Source: Nitrospinae bacterium CG11_big_fil_rev_8_21_14_0_20_45_15 (GTDB taxonomy: Bacteria > Nitrospinota > Nitrospinia > Nitrospinales > VA-1). Taken from it: a stretch of 64,000 nucleotides of DNA. The translations under genes were made by a program, and so were the position numbers. Position 1 is the first letter of the stretch, and the number at the start of each line of letters is the position of its first letter. The notes under the pieces were generated by a model that saw nothing but the letters and a program-made list of their open reading frames with translations, was not told where the DNA came from and searched no databases. This document shows, piece after piece, positions 12,531 through 33,181 of this stretch. Location: NCBI GenBank assembly GCA_002787235.1, contig PCWG01000041.1:75713-139712 (forward strand), written 5' to 3'.

Positions 12531-13142
12531 TCAGGATGTTTCGTTTACAGCCTGCGAAGGTGTTGCATTCGCAGTACTTGCAATGGATGGCAACGCTTGA
12601 TCTTCAAGAATAACCGTTTTAGTCGCTTGGTCCACTTGAGTGATAACCTCTGTGTTTATCTCCGCACCAATCTCATTTGCGATATTTTCCATAACATCCA
12701 AGGTCTCAAGGAACCCGGAATCGAAACTGAATCCAGCATCCCCACCACCACCAAAATCAGCACCGGGAGGCAGAGCTTCACCGAAACCGCCACCAGGACC
12801 ACCATCACCGAAACCACCATCACCACCGCCGCCAGGGCCGCCACCATCACCACCAAAGCCGCCTCCGCCAGAACCACCACCTTGTTGGCCACCTTGACCA
12901 CCTTGGCCACCTTGACCACCTTGGCCGCCTTGGCCCCCTTGGCCCCCTTGACCGCCTTGACCGCCTTGACCGCCTTGACCAGCTTGATTGGATTCTCCTC
13001 CGCCAAATCCAAAGAAATCCAAAATACCTCCCTGGGCTTCGGATCTTGAGTCAATATCCTTAAAAGCGAAGAATCCCAAAGCCATTGTTAAGCCAATGAC
13101 GAGGACTTTCTTTTTTAGGCTAATTTTATTATTCAGGCTCAC
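12531..13142 (-). CDS. Gly/Gln-rich secreted protein
   Basis: A 203-residue low-complexity protein, not recognised by family. A basic N-terminus (NNKISLKKK) precedes a hydrophobic segment (VLVIGLTMALGFFAF) and a likely signal-peptidase site near SEAQ-GG. Then come about ten GGQ triplets, a Gly/Asp/Pro-rich stretch (residues 95-140), and a C-terminal ordered part of about 55 residues ending in Thr/Ser. The start is GTG at 13142 with AAGGAG nine bases upstream. It follows the beta-barrel gene by 46 bp and ends at a good terminator, so the two form an operon. A surface or extracellular structural role is possible but unproven. Confidence 0.7.
   Translation of the reverse strand: MSLNNKISLKKKVLVIGLTMALGFFAFKDIDSRSEAQGGILDFFGFGGGESNQAGQGGQGGQGGQGGQGGQGGQGGQGGQGGQGGQQGGGSGGGGFGGDGGGPGGGGDGGFGDGGPGGGFGEALPPGADFGGGGDAGFSFDSGFLETLDVMENIANEIGAEINTEVITQVDQATKTVILEDQALPSIASTANATPSQAVNETS
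12881..12990. repeat. 9-bp tandem repeat encoding GGQ triplets
   Basis: About a dozen tandem copies of a 9-base unit of the form CCxCCTTGx (plus strand), coding Gly-Gly-Gln on the minus strand. Copies differ mostly at third codon positions. This is a likely site of length variation between strains. Confidence 0.85.
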
Positions 13143-23786: not shown

Positions 23787-24062
23787 AAAATAGTTCGTAT
23801 GAAAGTTAGCGTCAGGGTATGAATTCCTAAATTCCCTTATTAATCATTACTCTAGGTCACCCGATCATAATGGATGGTGTTAAATTGTCAAATGAATTGC
23901 GTGCGACACCGTTTCCGCCTCAACAAAAATTAAAATTATATCATTGAAAAAAATACAGTAATCAACGTCCCTCAATACCTCCCATTGCAAAAGCCATCGT
24001 ACTGTGCGATGTTAAACAGTGATGGAAACCTACTTTGGATCCGAACCACTTCAGCCTTCCCA
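23787..24062. other. Intergenic region between divergent glyS and the STAND gene
   Basis: About 275 bp, AT-rich. It should contain both promoters. I looked for a T-box leader for glyS (conserved AGGGTGG-type loop with a terminator) and saw none. An open frame could extend the downstream gene to 23985, but that part has no family features. Confidence 0.35.
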
Positions 24063-26306
24063 ATGACGACTGCAATTCTCTTTATCTTCATTGCTCTACT
24101 TGGTGTAAGTGCTCTCAAAATTTTCACAAAACCAAGCGGCAAACATTCAGAAAAATCAAACAAATCTGAAGATACTTCAGGCAGTTTGAGATTGCCCGGA
24201 ACTCAAAAAAACTCATCCGTCAACCTGAAGCTACTGCAATCTCAAGGCGTCAAGTCATTGCGAGAGGCTGGTCTCCATCAGCTCCCCCCACCTCCCGAGC
24301 CCTATATAGGTCGTCAAAACGAAGCAAAAAATCTTCTCAAAGAAGAATTTGGCCGCCCCATCATTATTAATATTCATGGACCTCAGGGCATTGGAAAAAA
24401 AGCATTGGCTTTTAAGACAGCGCAAAAGCTCTTCTTTCAGTTTCGAGATGCCCAGATATTTTATGACATGAAAAGCAATGGCAAGGAACCCAGAGGTGTC
24501 GCACAAGCCTTGGCCCATGTCATCCAATTGTTCAACCCGAACGTCGACATTCCAGAAAACAAGATCGAGTTGGTCAAATTGTATCGCATGTCAACCAAAG
24601 GTCAGCGTATCATTCTGATCCTCGGCAATGTGAGCTCTGCAAAACAAGCGAAACCCTTATTGCTTCATAAAAATTCAGTGGTGATTCTTACTTCTGCGGA
24701 ACCCTTGAACCTTCCCAGCTGTATCTCTCAAGGTCTTGAAGAAATGGACAAGCAGGATGCATTGGATTTGGTCACTGCGCTTTGTCCGCGCGCAGGTTTT
24801 TCCAATATAGAGATTTCCAAAACCTGTAGAAATCACCCTTTTTCAATCGTCCTCATATCAAAATTTTTGACCTGCAATCCCAATATCAATCCACCGGATT
24901 TCATTAAAGCTCTGCAAAGTCAAATCAGTAGCATGGAAATAACGGGAAGCATGGGGTTCCAAAAAATTCAACTTGCCGTTTTAAGTACTTGCTATAAATT
25001 CTTACCGGCACCGATGTCCTCAAGTCTGCGAAAAATGGCCATCATTCCCGGCTCTTTCGACGACAAGGCTCAGGAGTTCATTTGTGAAGACTCGGAAGGA
25101 AAATTTCTTGCGCACCTGCATCTGATGGGATTTCTGGAATACGAAGAAAAATCAGATCGATACACCATGCCGGATCAAATTCGCACTTTTTTGCGTAAAC
25201 AGATTCAGATCGGCGAAAAATCATTAACAACGACCCGATTTTCTACCTATTACCTGACCCGGCTCGTCGCGGCACACGAATCTTTCTCGTCAGGAGATCA
25301 GGGCATCATCAAGGGAATGATAACTTTTGATCAGGAATGGGACAACATCAACCTCGGACAATCCTGGTCAGCAACCCACGTCCTGGAGAGTGAAGACTCT
25401 GCGCGCATCTGCAGTTCTTATATGGAATCGGCGGCGGAACTCTTAAGAAAACGTCAACCCCTTTCCGTTGCGATCTCCTGGTATGAGGCCGCTCTTCAAG
25501 CGGCTCAAAAACTGGGCGATACTCAGGCCGAAAAAACTCACCTGATCAATCTGGCAGAGCAATTAACCACTCAAAAAAATCATCAGCGCGCCAGTCAACT
25601 GCTGACAAAATGTCTCGAATTGGCCAAACAACTCGGAGATACCAAAACCGAGTTGGCTGTGCACCATCAATTGGGACGGGCCGCGATGGATATGAAAAAA
25701 TACGAGCAAGCCGTTGAGTATTTTAAACAAGAAATGGACTTCGTGAACGCGATGGAGGACAAACCCGGGCTCGAAGAAATTCTGGAAAATCTGGGGGAAT
25801 GCCAACACTTGATGGGCAACACCAATGAAGCCCTGAAGCTCTACGGAACCGGTCTGACTCAGGCCCAAAAAGCAAAAAACTTTCAAGTTCAGTCCCGAAT
25901 ATTTAGAAAAATCGGGCAAACGCACAACGAAAATAAAAACGGGCAAGCGGCGATACGATTTTTGGAACAGGGTCTGATTGTATCCAGGAAAAACAAATAC
26001 AAGGAAGAACAGGGCTTGATCCTTGCTCAACTCGGCGAATCCTATAATCAAATTAAGAGTCTGGATAAGGCACTGCGCAACTTTCAGCAAGCCGTAGTGA
26101 TGGCGCAACAAACCAACAATATGTTGATGGAAGGTGAAGCGATCTGGAAACTCAGTATCCTGCTGAAACAAAAAGGCGAATCCTCCGGTGCCATCCAGCA
26201 CGGCAAGTCGGCTCTAAAAATTTTTGGCGCACTGAACCATCCCTTAAAAATGGAAGCGCATAAAAAAGTTCAGGAATGGCGTGCTTCCGAAGGCGAAGTG
26301 ATCTAA
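24063..26306 (+). CDS. Membrane-anchored STAND (NB-ARC-like) ATPase with TPR repeats
   Basis: About 747 residues. The N-terminus is a single membrane segment (MTTAILFIFIALLGVSALKI). A Ser/Lys-rich linker and proline stretch (PPPPEPYIGRQNE) lead into an NB-ARC-like domain with a P-loop-like GPQGIGKK at 106-113 and the strand RIILILGNV. The Walker A Ser/Thr is replaced by Lys and the Walker B Asp by Gly, so ATP hydrolysis is doubtful. A winged-helix-like part follows, and the C-terminal half holds about seven TPRs (for example AVEYFKQEMDFVNAMED, AIRFLEQGLIVSRKNK). The domain order matches signal-transduction STAND proteins. The ATG at 24063 is chosen because it places the membrane anchor first. 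Confidence 0.78.
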   Translation: MTTAILFIFIALLGVSALKIFTKPSGKHSEKSNKSEDTSGSLRLPGTQKNSSVNLKLLQSQGVKSLREAGLHQLPPPPEPYIGRQNEAKNLLKEEFGRPIIINIHGPQGIGKKALAFKTAQKLFFQFRDAQIFYDMKSNGKEPRGVAQALAHVIQLFNPNVDIPENKIELVKLYRMSTKGQRIILILGNVSSAKQAKPLLLHKNSVVILTSAEPLNLPSCISQGLEEMDKQDALDLVTALCPRAGFSNIEISKTCRNHPFSIVLISKFLTCNPNINPPDFIKALQSQISSMEITGSMGFQKIQLAVLSTCYKFLPAPMSSSLRKMAIIPGSFDDKAQEFICEDSEGKFLAHLHLMGFLEYEEKSDRYTMPDQIRTFLRKQIQIGEKSLTTTRFSTYYLTRLVAAHESFSSGDQGIIKGMITFDQEWDNINLGQSWSATHVLESEDSARICSSYMESAAELLRKRQPLSVAISWYEAALQAAQKLGDTQAEKTHLINLAEQLTTQKNHQRASQLLTKCLELAKQLGDTKTELAVHHQLGRAAMDMKKYEQAVEYFKQEMDFVNAMEDKPGLEEILENLGECQHLMGNTNEALKLYGTGLTQAQKAKNFQVQSRIFRKIGQTHNENKNGQAAIRFLEQGLIVSRKNKYKEEQGLILAQLGESYNQIKSLDKALRNFQQAVVMAQQTNNMLMEGEAIWKLSILLKQKGESSGAIQHGKSALKIFGALNHPLKMEAHKKVQEWRASEGEVI

Positions 26307-28047: not shown

Positions 28048-28155
28048 TTGCGTTTTTCAAACCTGAATCATGATACAATGACCCGTTCCTTCGCATAAAA
28101 ATTTGCTACCGAAACCGGACGATATTCCAGTCTTTTTCATACATAAGGGTCATTG

Positions 28156-28590
28156 ATGTCTGACGCACCTGTTTTAATCAAAAAATTTGGCTCCTATAAC
28201 CTCATCAAATGGAAGGGGACCTTTTATGGCCTGCCCCTCTCTGTCGGCCCTGTGCAAATGGACAAAGGAGATCTTTCATTGATCCCGGCATTATTCCAAG
28301 CCCAAACCATGATCGAAGTAGAAAAATTGATTGTTGATAACCGCTCTTTGATACAGAAGCACACGCAACCACTCCTCGAAGAAACCTATGGGTTTTATAA
28401 TATTGTCGTCTGGGGCGCCATCTATTATGGGATACCCAAAGTAGGAGCCTTTAATTTTACATCTCATGATGAAATCGCAGACAAAGAGGGTGTTTTCTTC
28501 AATCATTCGCTTCCCGAATTAAAAAAACAAATGGAAAACTATTGTCGAAACCAACACAAGAAAAATGCGGGACTGACGGTTACTTCTTAA
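28156..28590 (+). CDS. Small protein with two aromatic/Pro-Gly repeat modules
   Basis: A 144-residue soluble protein with no signal peptide. It consists of two diverged copies of one module: FGSYNLIKWKGTFYGLPLSV-GP near residues 9-30 and YGFYNIVVWGAIYYGIPKVG near 80-100. Each copy is followed by an Asp/Glu-rich strand and an amphipathic helix (MIEVEKLIVDN, LPELKKQMENY). The same YN-x(7-8)-[FY]-x-x-P-x-x-x-G pattern occurs 16 times in the large radical SAM protein 76 bp downstream. The ATG at 28156 has AAGGGT nearby. I do not know a function; the shared module argues that the two proteins work on the same partner. Confidence 0.75.
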   Translation: MSDAPVLIKKFGSYNLIKWKGTFYGLPLSVGPVQMDKGDLSLIPALFQAQTMIEVEKLIVDNRSLIQKHTQPLLEETYGFYNIVVWGAIYYGIPKVGAFNFTSHDEIADKEGVFFNHSLPELKKQMENYCRNQHKKNAGLTVTS

Positions 28591-28666: not shown

Positions 28667-31600
28667 GTGAAATATATAGACACGGATGTCCCTTTGACAC
28701 AACTGGGTCCTCCTGAAATCATAGACATAGAACCCATCCAAACCTGCAATTTGCGTTGTCTGCAGTGCCACGTCAGCTACGAACCCCTCTCGCATACCAG
28801 GCTAGACCCCGCATTTTTAAAAAACCTGAAAGGCATCGAAAATCGCTGGGTATTATTAGGAGGGGAATACGAACCTTTTGCGCACCCGAAAATCGGGGAT
28901 ATTATTTCCGGTCTTTCTCAACTAGGGGTAAAAATCGAAGTCACCACCAACGGCACCCTGTTTACCCCCAGGCTGGAAGCGCAAATTGAAGATGCCAAAT
29001 GGGCCAACGTCGTTATTTCATTTGATGGAGCTACAAAAAAGACATTTGAATCCATCCGAAGAAACGCAAATTTTGACAAAACCATTGAAAGCATCATCAA
29101 CTTTAAAACCGCAGTCCAAACTCATCAGGGAAGAGATGTTACTTTTTCTATAAACTACACAATCCTGCGTAGAAATATTGCAGAAATACCACAAGCCGTC
29201 GGCCTGTGGGAAGGATTGGGATTTGATCACATAGGCTTCATTGCCATGGTGATCCGCAATTCAAATGAGACGTTAGAAAAAGAAAGCCCTGAACCTGTCA
29301 TGGACCAGGTCTATGAACAGTTGGATATTGCCGCCAGAAACGTCATTAAGAATAACAGCCGGATCACATTGACCAGTGCGGGTTACCTGAACCGATGGTC
29401 TGAAGTAAAAGACGAACTGCCTGTCAACTTTATGAACAGTCTGGTTGTTTCCAACCACCCCGAAACACGAACCCCATTCAATCCCAGAACATATTTTCAA
29501 AATGGAGCATTCCCCGGCATGCATGTAAATTGCCGGTCCCCCTTCAAATACGTTCGCATTTTGTACAACGGAGACGTTGAATTATGCTTCCAGTTCACAA
29601 TTGGAAGTATCTATGAAAATAATATTCTGGATATCTGGTACGGCAAAAAAGCTCAGGATGTTCGGGAACTGGTTACAAAAAATCCCGCCGTATGTTATGC
29701 CTGCGACTATTACAAATTCTGCATCAAAGCCGAAGGGGTTGATTACTCAAATCAGGACAACCACCACAATGAAAGCATGGTGTCCCAGTTTGCGAAACCC
29801 CTGTTTATACAAGAACTGGGAGCGTTTCAAATTGTAGGATACCAGAATGCTTTTTACAGCTTCCCAAAAATAATGGGGCATTTGGACCCCAGATTCTTTG
29901 ATAGGGTAAACGAGGATAAAAAAATATTTCGGGCGGATACCATCATCGACCTGAAAGACAAAATCAGAAAATTTTTTGAAAATAATGAGTTGGAATTACT
30001 CGAATCCATCACTTCTTCCCTCTTTGTTCAAGTATTCGGGAAATACAACATCATGGCATGGTGGGATGGTTATATTGGGATTCCAAAAGCCTATGGACCT
30101 GTCAAAATCAATAAACCCGGTGACCTGGATACTAAAGGAATATTTTTTGAACTATCACTTGAAAAGTTGAAATACGAAATAGAAAAATTTTCAGAGACGT
30201 TCGAATTACCAGACAAAACACCTGAATCTGTTGAATTCAAACAGCACAATATTTCTTACTGGCGTGGAAGCTATCTGGGCATTCCTCATGCTCTCGGAAC
30301 GATTGATCTGGAATCAGGCAATCTGGACAAATTAGCCGGCTCGCTCATCGGCTCCAATTTAAACGCAGTCAAAGAAAAAATCAGCCAGAAAGTTTTAGCA
30401 GAAGAAGAACGGCAAAATATCTTCAAAAATTTAAAAATTGTCCCCTACAGGAAACACAATACCTTCCACCTTTTTTCCGAGTTTTTCGCTGTACCACAGG
30501 CACTGGGCTTCGTTGACCTGCAATCGGACGAATTGAAGCAAATCAAAGGGATACTCACAGCAGACAGTCAGAGGGAACTTGAAAAGAAAATCGATCAGCA
30601 AATTTTAGTGGAAGAGGAAAGGCATCGCGCCGCCCAGAACTTGCAAATCGTCACTTACAAAGGGCACAACACCTTCCACCTGCTCTCTCAGTTTTTTGCA
30701 GTACCACAAGCCCTTGGTGCTTTCGATCCCCTCTCAGACGAACTGGAACATCTTCCCGGCGTTCTGACTGCCGGAAATCAAAAAGAAATAGAAAACAAGA
30801 TCGACCTGAAAATTATAGCGCAGGAAGAACGGCATCGTGCCGCCCAGAACTTGCAAATTGTCGCCTACAAAGAGTACAATACCTTTGAGCTGGGCTCCGA
30901 GTCCTTCGCAATACCTCAAGCCCTTGGTGCCTTCGATCCCCTTTCAGACACCCTGAAACAACTGGAAGGGATTTTAACTGCAGACAGTCCAAACGAACTT
31001 AAGGAAAAGATTGACCAAGAAATTATAGAAAAACAGGAACAACAACGTTCCACCTATAACTTGAAAATCATCGCCTACAAAGAGCACAATACCTTTCAGC
31101 TAGGCTCCAGGTTCATTGCAGTACCACAGGTACTCGGTGCTTTCGATCCCCATTCAGCCGAACTGGGAAATCTTCCCGGCGTCCTGACTGCCGACAGTCA
31201 AAACGATCTTGAAAAAAAAATAGATCAGAAAATTTCAGCTAAAGAAAAATTAAGACGCGCCGCCCAGAATTTAAAAATCGTCTCCTACAAAGAATACAAT
31301 ACCTTTAATATAGGCTCCGAGTTCTTAGCGGTGCCACAAGCCCTCGGTGCTTTTGATCCACTTTCAGATGAACTTGGAAGTTTAGCGGGCGTTCTGACTG
31401 CCGGAAATCAAAAAGAACTCGAAAACAAGATCGATCAGAAAATCGTCGCGCAAGAAGAACGACGACACGCCGTAGAAAACTTGAAAATTGTCGTCTATAA
31501 AGGACACAATACCTTCCAACTGGTTGCAGAGTTTTATGCTGTCCCTCAAGCTCTGGGTTTCGTTGACCTGCTGTCAGACGATCTGAAGCAGATCAAAGGA

Positions 31601-33181
31601 ATTCTTACTGCACCCAGCCAGAACGAACTTGAAAAAAAGATCGACCAAAAAATATCAGCGAAATTGGAACAACTTTGCACCACAGTGACCATGAAAATCA
31701 TCGCCTACAAAGGATACAATACCTTCAGCATCGACTCAAAGGTCTTCGCAATCCCGCAAGCTCTCGGTGCCTTCGATCCCCATTCAGACGAACTGGAAAA
31801 TCTCCCTGGCGTTTTAACGGCTGACACTCTGGCGAAACTCGAAATAAAGATCAACCAGAAAATTTTAGCGGAAGAAGAACAAAAGCGCATTGTCCGGGAC
31901 ATCAATATCATTGCCTATAAAGGACACAACACCTTTTGCCTCGGTGACAAGTACTATGCGGTACCACAAGCTCTCGGTGCCTTCGATCCCCATTCAGACG
32001 ACTTGAAAAACCTCCCCGGCGTTCTGACCGCCGACAATCAAAAAGAAATCGAAGATAAGATCGACCAGAAAATTGCGAAGGAAGAAGAACGACGACGCGC
32101 CGCCGCAAACCTGAAAATCATCGCTTACAAAGAACACAACACCTTCTGCCTCGGTGACAAGTACTTTGCGGTACCACAGGCACTCGGTGCCTTCGATCCC
32201 AATTCATACGAACTGGAAAATCTCCCCGGCGTTCTGACTGCCGGAAATAAAAAAGAACTCGAAAATAAGATCGACCAGAAAATTGCGAGGGAAGAAGAGC
32301 GACGACGCGCCGCTAAAAACCTGCAAATCGTTGCCTATAAAGGGCACAACATTTTCAATCTATTTTCTGAATCCTTCGCAGTGCCACAAGCACTGGGTGC
32401 TTTCGACCCCTTTTCCGACGATCTCAAAAACTTTCCCGGCATTCTCACCGCCAATAACCAGAAGAAACTCAAAAAATTAATTGATCAGAAAATTGCAAAA
32501 GAAGAAGTACGGCGACACAACGCCGAAAACTTTAAGATCGTTCCCTACGAAAGTTACAATACCTTCAGCCTGGGCAAACAGATCTTCGCCGTACCGCAAG
32601 CCCTGGGTGCTTTCGATCCTTTTTCCGACGATCTCAAAACTCTTCCCGGCATTCTGATCGCGGCCAGCCAGAAAGACATCGAAAAACAGATTGACCAACA
32701 ACTTGTTGCCAAGCAACAAGACAGCTCAAAAAATGGGACAAGTGTCAAAGACGAACAACAATCCATCCCGAAAAATCCGAATATTATTGTCTACAAAGGT
32801 TATTATACCCTCCGCCAGAATTCCAAGTACCTTGCCATTCCGCAAATACTGGGCACTTTCGATCCGCAATCCAACGATCTGATAAATCTTCCCGGGGTGC
32901 TGTCGGCTATTGATCAGAAAATACTTATGAATATGATCGACCAGAAAATTCTAGCCGAAGCGGAACGACGACGCGTCTTGGAAAACCTTAAAATTCTTAG
33001 TTATAAAGGATACAAAGTTTTTCATCTCGTCTCCGAATCTTTTGCTGTTCCCGAATCGCACGGTGATTTCGATCCGCTTTCAGAAGACTTGAAAAAAATT
33101 CCAGGCATCCTGACCGCCTACGATCAGAAGAGGCTCAAAAACAAGATTGACCAGCAAATGGATTCTGAAAAAACCGACTGA
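28667..33181 (+). CDS. Radical SAM/SPASM protein fused to 16 tandem repeat modules
   Basis: A 1504-residue protein starting at GTG, with GAGG upstream. Residues 1-375 form a radical SAM enzyme: CNLRCLQC at 27-34, GGEYEPFAHP as the SAM-binding loop, TTNGTLF, ISFDG, and a SPASM-like part with HVNCRSP, VELCFQ and CYACDYYKFC. The rest is an array of about 70-residue modules. Three are divergent (about 380-593) and thirteen are close copies starting at residues 594, 664, 734, 804, 874, 944, 1014, 1084, 1154, 1224, 1294, 1376 and 1446. The core reads Y-K-x-H-N-T-F, then FAVPQALGAFDP, LPGVLTA and a charged helix (ENKIDQKI, EEERRRAAQNL). The eleventh close copy has a 12-residue insertion. No signal peptide or membrane segment is seen. 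The substrate is unknown. Confidence 0.88.
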   Translation: MKYIDTDVPLTQLGPPEIIDIEPIQTCNLRCLQCHVSYEPLSHTRLDPAFLKNLKGIENRWVLLGGEYEPFAHPKIGDIISGLSQLGVKIEVTTNGTLFTPRLEAQIEDAKWANVVISFDGATKKTFESIRRNANFDKTIESIINFKTAVQTHQGRDVTFSINYTILRRNIAEIPQAVGLWEGLGFDHIGFIAMVIRNSNETLEKESPEPVMDQVYEQLDIAARNVIKNNSRITLTSAGYLNRWSEVKDELPVNFMNSLVVSNHPETRTPFNPRTYFQNGAFPGMHVNCRSPFKYVRILYNGDVELCFQFTIGSIYENNILDIWYGKKAQDVRELVTKNPAVCYACDYYKFCIKAEGVDYSNQDNHHNESMVSQFAKPLFIQELGAFQIVGYQNAFYSFPKIMGHLDPRFFDRVNEDKKIFRADTIIDLKDKIRKFFENNELELLESITSSLFVQVFGKYNIMAWWDGYIGIPKAYGPVKINKPGDLDTKGIFFELSLEKLKYEIEKFSETFELPDKTPESVEFKQHNISYWRGSYLGIPHALGTIDLESGNLDKLAGSLIGSNLNAVKEKISQKVLAEEERQNIFKNLKIVPYRKHNTFHLFSEFFAVPQALGFVDLQSDELKQIKGILTADSQRELEKKIDQQILVEEERHRAAQNLQIVTYKGHNTFHLLSQFFAVPQALGAFDPLSDELEHLPGVLTAGNQKEIENKIDLKIIAQEERHRAAQNLQIVAYKEYNTFELGSESFAIPQALGAFDPLSDTLKQLEGILTADSPNELKEKIDQEIIEKQEQQRSTYNLKIIAYKEHNTFQLGSRFIAVPQVLGAFDPHSAELGNLPGVLTADSQNDLEKKIDQKISAKEKLRRAAQNLKIVSYKEYNTFNIGSEFLAVPQALGAFDPLSDELGSLAGVLTAGNQKELENKIDQKIVAQEERRHAVENLKIVVYKGHNTFQLVAEFYAVPQALGFVDLLSDDLKQIKGILTAPSQNELEKKIDQKISAKLEQLCTTVTMKIIAYKGYNTFSIDSKVFAIPQALGAFDPHSDELENLPGVLTADTLAKLEIKINQKILAEEEQKRIVRDINIIAYKGHNTFCLGDKYYAVPQALGAFDPHSDDLKNLPGVLTADNQKEIEDKIDQKIAKEEERRRAAANLKIIAYKEHNTFCLGDKYFAVPQALGAFDPNSYELENLPGVLTAGNKKELENKIDQKIAREEERRRAAKNLQIVAYKGHNIFNLFSESFAVPQALGAFDPFSDDLKNFPGILTANNQKKLKKLIDQKIAKEEVRRHNAENFKIVPYESYNTFSLGKQIFAVPQALGAFDPFSDDLKTLPGILIAASQKDIEKQIDQQLVAKQQDSSKNGTSVKDEQQSIPKNPNIIVYKGYYTLRQNSKYLAIPQILGTFDPQSNDLINLPGVLSAIDQKILMNMIDQKILAEAERRRVLENLKILSYKGYKVFHLVSESFAVPESHGDFDPLSEDLKKIPGILTAYDQKRLKNKIDQQMDSEKTD
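30446..33178 (+). repeat. Tandem 210-bp coding repeats (13 close copies)
   Basis: Thirteen in-frame units with a period of exactly 210 bp from 30446 to 32755, then one spacing of 246 bp and a final shortened unit from 33002. The best conserved DNA in each unit is the part coding AVPQALGAFDP. The region coding the charged helix varies more. The pattern indicates growth by unequal crossing-over. There are no variable spacers as in CRISPR arrays. Confidence 0.93.

Follow-up and report, generated by a model that had tools for sequence, protein, structure and literature searches.

The question raised by this locus is why a radical SAM enzyme should carry a long tail of repeated modules, and whether those modules are acted upon by the enzyme or serve it in some other way. 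We consider it probable, at roughly 0.6, that the protein is a radical SAM enzyme which takes part in making surface glycans, and that its tail modules form a non-catalytic recruitment array and are not its substrate. An earlier note on this DNA had proposed that the repeats are a multivalent scaffold or carrier, or are themselves modified; scaffold or carrier is the better suggestion, and modification is poorly supported by the evidence presented here.

The gene lies near the middle of the window, the term used here for the whole 64,000-nucleotide stretch of DNA that was analyzed. Its features, and that of the small gene preceding it, are as follows:

28156-28590, + strand: upstream two-module ORF, with the tail C-R-x-x-H-[RK]-K (HMM; likely ATG start at 28156)
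28667-33181, + strand: radical SAM/SPASM head and 16-module array, 1504 aa, GTG start (sequence, Pfam, HMM)
28667-29791, + strand: radical SAM/SPASM catalytic head, residues ~1-375 (Pfam PF04055 and PF13186; identity to the heads of relatives)
28745-28768, + strand: C-x3-C-x2-C cluster motif, residues 27-34, then the CHVSY signature (sequence; cysteines invariant in four heads)
29531-29722, + strand: SPASM region, Cys 289, 307, 343, 346 and 352 (Pfam and cysteine positions)
29822-30394, + strand: divergent modules 1-3, residues 386-433, 457-507 and 524-576 (HMM)
30446-32701, + strand: modules 4-14, residues 594-1345, regular 70-aa array (HMM and pitch; median pairwise dN/dS 0.23)
32792-33160, + strand: modules 15-16, residues 1376-1428 and 1446-1498, beyond a 12-residue insertion (HMM)

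The catalytic head

The reading frame at 28667-33181 is intact, with no internal stop codons. Pfam matches above cut-off were obtained for Radical_SAM (PF04055) at head residues 21-149 (E = 7e-10; 39.8 bits against a cut-off of 29.5) and for SPASM (PF13186) at residues 289-347 (E = 3e-9; 37.6 bits against 21.5), which identify the product as a member of the radical SAM superfamily with a SPASM domain. The cluster motif reads C27-x3-C31-x2-C34, exactly where the earlier note had placed it together with a set of SPASM-like cysteines. SPASM cysteines 289, 307, 343 and 346 are invariant in the four heads compared, and Cys 352 is missing from one of them. The window head has five of the seven canonical SPASM motif cysteines and no further cysteine beyond those of the cluster motif, so that a single, twitch-like auxiliary cluster is more likely than the two auxiliary clusters of a canonical seven-cysteine SPASM domain. 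The head starts ~26 residues ahead of the cluster motif, leaving no space for an N-terminal peptide-recognition (RRE) domain; some RiPP maturases lack an RRE. NCBIfam maturase models scored far under their cut-offs against the window protein.

In structural comparisons made with a partial model, the head matched the sugar-related enzymes DesII and BlsE and the peptide enzymes SuiB and SkfB to a similar degree, and the substrate of the head must therefore be argued from context and not from fold. The premise of the earlier note that known SPASM enzymes act on peptides or proteins does not hold for all SPASM/twitch enzymes: the twitch enzyme BtrN has an aminocyclitol as the substrate that it oxidises, and the substrate of MoaA is GTP (PMC9012708).

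The module array and the upstream two-module gene

From residue 386 onward the tail consists of 16 modules, all detected by HMM with domain E < 1e-14. The first three are divergent, and the other 13, spanning residues 594 to 1498, are close copies. The array has a pitch of 70 residues except at the first two gaps (71 and 67) and at the single 12-residue insertion (82). At lags of 70 and 140 residues the self-similarity scores are 2.06 and 1.75, respectively, as compared to a maximum never above -0.62 in the shuffle control (300 shuffles, 110 lags), and a DNA-level repeat with a 210-bp period and 10 copies was found independently. The HMM and the lag-70 signal bear out the division into three divergent and thirteen close modules at a ~70-residue period that had been read from the sequence earlier. 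Pairwise comparison of the modules gave a median dN/dS of 0.23 and a median dS of 1.44; the array is thus old and held by purifying selection, and is not the product of recent stutter. There are 3 cysteines among the 1121 residues of the tail, which makes thioether chemistry there implausible. The module arrays of other proteins mostly have a pitch of 60-65 residues, shorter than the constant 70 of the window protein.

Directly before the radical SAM gene is a gene absent from the earlier note, an ORF at 28153-28590 (145 aa) which consists of only two modules (residues 12-60 and 79-131, read from 28153). A second such pair is present in the same genome on contig C38, where a 145-aa two-module ORF is followed by a radical SAM/SPASM protein bearing four modules and a head with 52% identity to the window head. 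Module 1 of the window radical SAM protein and module 1 of the C38 paralogue are reciprocal best matches. Leaving aside modules of its own protein, the second module of each small ORF has its counterpart in the other ORF as its closest match, alone or in a tie, and this is also true of module 1 in the radical SAM pair. Given these cross-locus matches, the ancestral unit is most simply an ORF pair with few modules, and the 13-copy block would most simply be an expansion particular to the window protein.

The C38 paralogue sits inside a Wzm/Wzt-GT-sulfotransferase cluster, in which modules are also carried by a sulfotransferase (four), a GT2 (five), a GT2-module-GT1 fusion (five) and a GT2 (one). 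Contig C38 additionally encodes a 2680-aa ORF (L022:4822-12864, - strand) that, judged by eye, resembles a beta-propeller, TPR and apparently two CHAT-protease-like regions.

The module family

The module is ~53 aa long and has conserved aromatic positions. No convincing match was found when 39 diverse modules were compared to Pfam (best single-member E = 0.031, one member) and NCBIfam (best E = 0.078, one member), and nothing significant was found when a module profile was compared to the PDB (best E = 0.13). These profile searches, which the earlier note had proposed as a check, thus gave no known repeat family for the module. An AlphaFold2 model of three modules, with the window sequences alone as input, was predicted with a pLDDT of 87 and a pTM of 0.49. 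In this model each module is predicted to begin with three strands, which a short turn region separates from a fourth; a single long helix then leads into the next module; the fold prediction suggested earlier is therefore a confident one, of strands and a long helix, with no match in the PDB under E = 0.049 by Foldseek. The low pTM is as expected for what may be beads on flexible or helical linkers. A hemopexin-like beta-propeller fold, the top Foldseek lead, was rejected (E ~0.05, TM-score 0.11-0.14, no sequence match). When the head and the first three modules were modeled together the barrel was acceptable and the tail was of low confidence owing to the shallow alignment, and no inter-domain conclusions are drawn from this model.

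When the fetched loci were searched with an iterated HMM, ~150 modules were gathered, borne by about 55 proteins of several phyla. Within the small phylum to which the window belongs, 3 of 77 genomes had the module; it was also found in 9 of 246 genomes of the Nitrospirota (the phylum of Candidatus Magnetominusculus), 3 of 345 genomes of the phylum of Syntrophus and 1 of 385 genomes of an alphaproteobacterial sample, plus two Azospirillum plasmids. There were no matches among 369 genomes of the Gammaproteobacteria (the class of Accumulibacter), a search made without a positive control inside the class. Phages and viral contigs gave no match, and a phage or viral origin of the module was rejected on this basis. 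The module is rare, patchy and cross-phylum in its distribution, like horizontally moving surface-polysaccharide loci.

The partners of the module are about ten kinds of enzyme, almost all of them involved in glycan assembly. Among transferases they include GT2, GT1/GT4, double GT2, Sulfotransfer_1, Methyltransf_24 and Methyltransf_11 proteins; the others are a protein fused to APS kinase, a CDP-glycerol glycerophosphotransferase-like protein (Glyphos_transf), a membrane acyltransferase (Acyl_transf_3) and two kinds of radical enzyme, a B12-binding radical SAM enzyme and the radical SAM/SPASM proteins. The module is also present on the exporter ATPase Wzt, placed between ABC_tran and Wzt_C (L148). 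The search for domain partners advised by the earlier note has thereby yielded a set of surface-glycan assembly enzymes. Glycosyltransferases carry up to 11 modules, and at least three radical SAM/SPASM-module fusions exist besides the window protein. The earlier note had recognized no described system of this layout, and this part of the claim holds: no family model recognizes the repeat, and our literature searches turned up no account of such a system. With these other fusions the protein does not stand alone, but its layout is real and rare, and neither the libraries nor the papers searched describe it.

Modules on enzymes of the same locus are no more alike than modules from different loci (mean identity 0.228 versus 0.226), giving no sign of a single common ligand per pathway. 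A locus-specific code, in which the modules of one cluster share a ligand, was accordingly rejected.

Several other proteins in these loci may be noted. A 345-aa protein (L137:5055-6092) has two modules followed by a coiled-coil-like stretch, with no catalytic domain found; it adjoins a module-bearing methyltransferase and Wzt and is a candidate pure scaffold or ruler. Module-bearing glycosyltransferases are encoded on plasmids of Azospirillum lipoferum and A. ramasamyi (L087:5750-7270 and L176:7805-9325), and their near neighbors include a further radical SAM gene, sulfotransferases and an APS kinase fusion; the module-bearing glycosyltransferase of A. lipoferum 4B is AZOLI_RS30765. In Nitrospirota polysaccharide clusters, a small conserved ORF of ~164 aa containing YDLFVTHAWRFHEDWTKF (L140:8759-9250, L143:9419-9916 and L144:8806-9300) lies between the genes for a module-bearing GT2 and the B12-radical-SAM enzyme; the L144 copy has a weak ThsB/TIR-like match (PF08937, E = 1.8e-4).

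Relatives of the head and the Wzm/Wzt clusters

Wzt homologues were found at 17 of 24 module loci as compared to 0 of 32 control loci, figures which are descriptive and not a test of independent samples, as some of the 24 loci share a genome or belong to closely related organisms; the remaining 7 of the 24 are without a Wzt homologue. A Wzm/Wzt cluster with glycosyltransferases surrounds the C38 paralogue and the relatives in L143, L144 and L148, and no Wzm or Wzt gene was found within the window.

The four module-bearing heads (window, C38, and L143 and L144 from Nitrospirota) form one clade (support 98/99) that spans two phyla, with the window head being 34% identical to the two Nitrospirota heads. 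They carry different numbers of modules: two in L143, one in L144, four in C38 and 16 in the window. In both L143 and L144 the radical SAM/SPASM gene directly follows wzt. Among the Nitrospirota genomes sampled, the head was matched strongly (E < 1e-100) in 2 of 9 that bear the module and in 0 of 237 others (chance 0.0012). The head was absent at E 1e-25 from 12 of the 16 module-bearing genomes searched, and none of 59 relatives has a member of the head family. A pattern scan of genome contigs for close head relatives returned 28 loci, none of them close (best 28-38% identity over part of the head) and none with modules.

A fifth strong relative of the head, G1408 (L148:13626-16199, E = 1.5e-100), carries ankyrin repeats and no module, and the Wzt, methyltransferase and B12-radical SAM proteins of its cluster are all module-bearing. 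The ~240 N-terminal residues of this protein are without assignment, and its ankyrin array is C-terminal. Ankyrin repeats are a standard protein-binding scaffold. That the same kind of enzyme can naturally bear either of two repeat scaffolds is, of all the clues, the strongest one for a recruiting role of the tail.

Setting and origin of the window copy

The gene neighbors of the window copy are a solute-binding protein gene on one side and purS on the other, with no polysaccharide cluster. The GC content over 28.0-33.5 kb is 40-46%, versus 50-55% in the pur genes, and an ATPase/TPR-like ORF farther upstream is also AT-rich. In those relatives for which the purS region was fetched, purS-purQ-purL is present and the radical SAM pair is absent. 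The window copy, which retains all conserved head cysteines, looks to have been acquired or transposed out of a cluster, and is an expanded orphan away from the usual gene cluster. Elsewhere in the window, a 773-aa ORF at 23985-26306 (+ strand), with a membrane-helix-like N terminus, TPR repeats and what looks like a P-loop ATPase region, adjoins the solute-binding protein gene and is regulator-like, and a small predicted protein at 12531-13142 (- strand) has a hydrophobic N terminus and a long Gly-Gln (GGQ) repeat followed by a Gly-rich stretch.

Proposed function and alternatives

Judging from context, the head would perform radical chemistry on a sugar or a lipid-linked glycan, such as oxidation, epimerisation or dehydration. 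The module would be a small non-catalytic recognition domain, a common address tag of the surface-glycan pathway enzymes and Wzt, that may gather the enzymes on the assembly complex or along the growing chain, through contacts with partner proteins or with the chain itself. Many weak contacts could produce a high local concentration and processive modification; several modules would supply avidity, and sixteen a long multivalent arm. The window array may have grown from a few modules to 16 to suit a long polymer or to act as a hub. We put forward tentatively, at somewhat less than even odds, that the module is a general address domain for surface-glycan assembly and the 16-module protein a hub or processive polymer-modifying enzyme. 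On that view, enzymes from about ten unrelated families, along with the exporter ATPase, would use the domain to enter a single assembly line in the cytoplasm, or to follow one chain.

A variant of the recruitment reading that names the ligand would make the modules carbohydrate-binding, each gripping a polysaccharide repeat unit while the 16-fold array walks the polymer. In its favor, the fused enzymes have only a glycan substrate in common, the module in Wzt follows the ATPase and adjoins the known glycan-reading domain Wzt_C, the module has conserved aromatic positions, and long arrays occur on glycosyltransferases also. However, the head relative in a Wzt cluster bears ankyrin repeats, which are normally protein-binding, neither a carbohydrate-binding fold nor any PDB match below E 0.049 was obtained, and modules within one locus are not more alike than others. 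We regard this variant as rather unlikely, and lean slightly toward protein docking over glycan binding as the role of the module. A further reading, which we hold to be clearly improbable, takes the window copy for an orphan gained by horizontal transfer that no longer has a part in glycan assembly, its array having expanded neutrally or for a new role: the position of the copy outside any polysaccharide cluster, its low GC content and its absence, with that of the head family, from relatives would fit such a history, but the 4.5-kb ORF is intact with all conserved head cysteines, and the module dN/dS of ~0.23 with high dS indicates an old and constrained array.

A reading in which the repeats, or the small two-module protein, are what the head modifies, with the tail as substrate scaffold in a RiPP-like or protein modification system, appears more improbable still. 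SPASM enzymes are often peptide maturases, SuiB and SkfB are among the best matches of the head model, and in both places where the genome encodes the enzyme a two-module ORF lies ahead of it. This reading is opposed by the occurrence of the module mostly without the head (missing from 12 of 16 module-bearing genomes searched), by the variable number of modules on heads (1, 2, 4 or 16, or 0 in the ankyrin-bearing relative in a Wzt cluster), by the scarcity of cysteine in the tail (3 in 1121 residues) and by the lack of N-terminal room on the head for a peptide-recognition domain, and these points make the earlier suggestion of modified repeats less likely. The recruitment array remains our preferred reading of the tail.

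Comparison with known systems

Two matters that are poorly understood meet in this locus: the action of radical SAM enzymes on polymeric surface glycans, and the coordination of cytoplasmic enzymes on one chain prior to export. A shared module marks which enzymes belong to one pathway and predicts their physical association, and it points to radical-modified polysaccharides in little-studied phyla. The question is open to experiment, since the module occurs in strains of Azospirillum that are in culture. In C. jejuni HS:19 a radical SAM gene is reported near a capsule locus that has sulphation genes (PMC8743553).

The window head resembles the radical SAM/SPASM-twitch enzymes (BlsE, DesII and BtrN; SuiB and SkfB) in its CX3CX2C barrel and SPASM region, with structural matches at E = 1e-13 to 1e-7 and weak sequence matches, and differs from them in its five of seven SPASM motif cysteines and its repeat tail. 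It belongs to a CHVSY subfamily of its own, with at most ~33% identity (partial alignment) to the outside heads of the tree set. Wzt_C (PF14524), a non-catalytic domain on the exporter ATPase, adjoins the module in L148, and no sequence relation between the two was found.

Polysaccharides that leave the cell through Wzm/Wzt are put together by enzyme complexes inside the cytoplasm. Multi-enzyme complexes with extended scaffold proteins are established in Wzm/Wzt-dependent O-antigen assembly, and in the Klebsiella and E. coli systems coiled-coil proteins serve as both scaffold and ruler, with a Wzt domain reading the finished chain end (PMC11231755). The Wzm/Wzt pathway is also the point of likeness with WbdD, WbbB and the K. 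pneumoniae O4/O7 proteins, in which catalytic domains alternate or combine along the chain with non-catalytic regions, acting as spacers or scaffolds, through which a complex of several proteins is formed (PMC11231755). Some module proteins likewise appear to have coiled-coil-like stretches. Unlike a single coiled-coil ruler, the scaffold element seen here is a small repeated domain distributed over many separate enzymes and Wzt. The kind of enzyme is known; what is new is the module family and its pathway-wide distribution.
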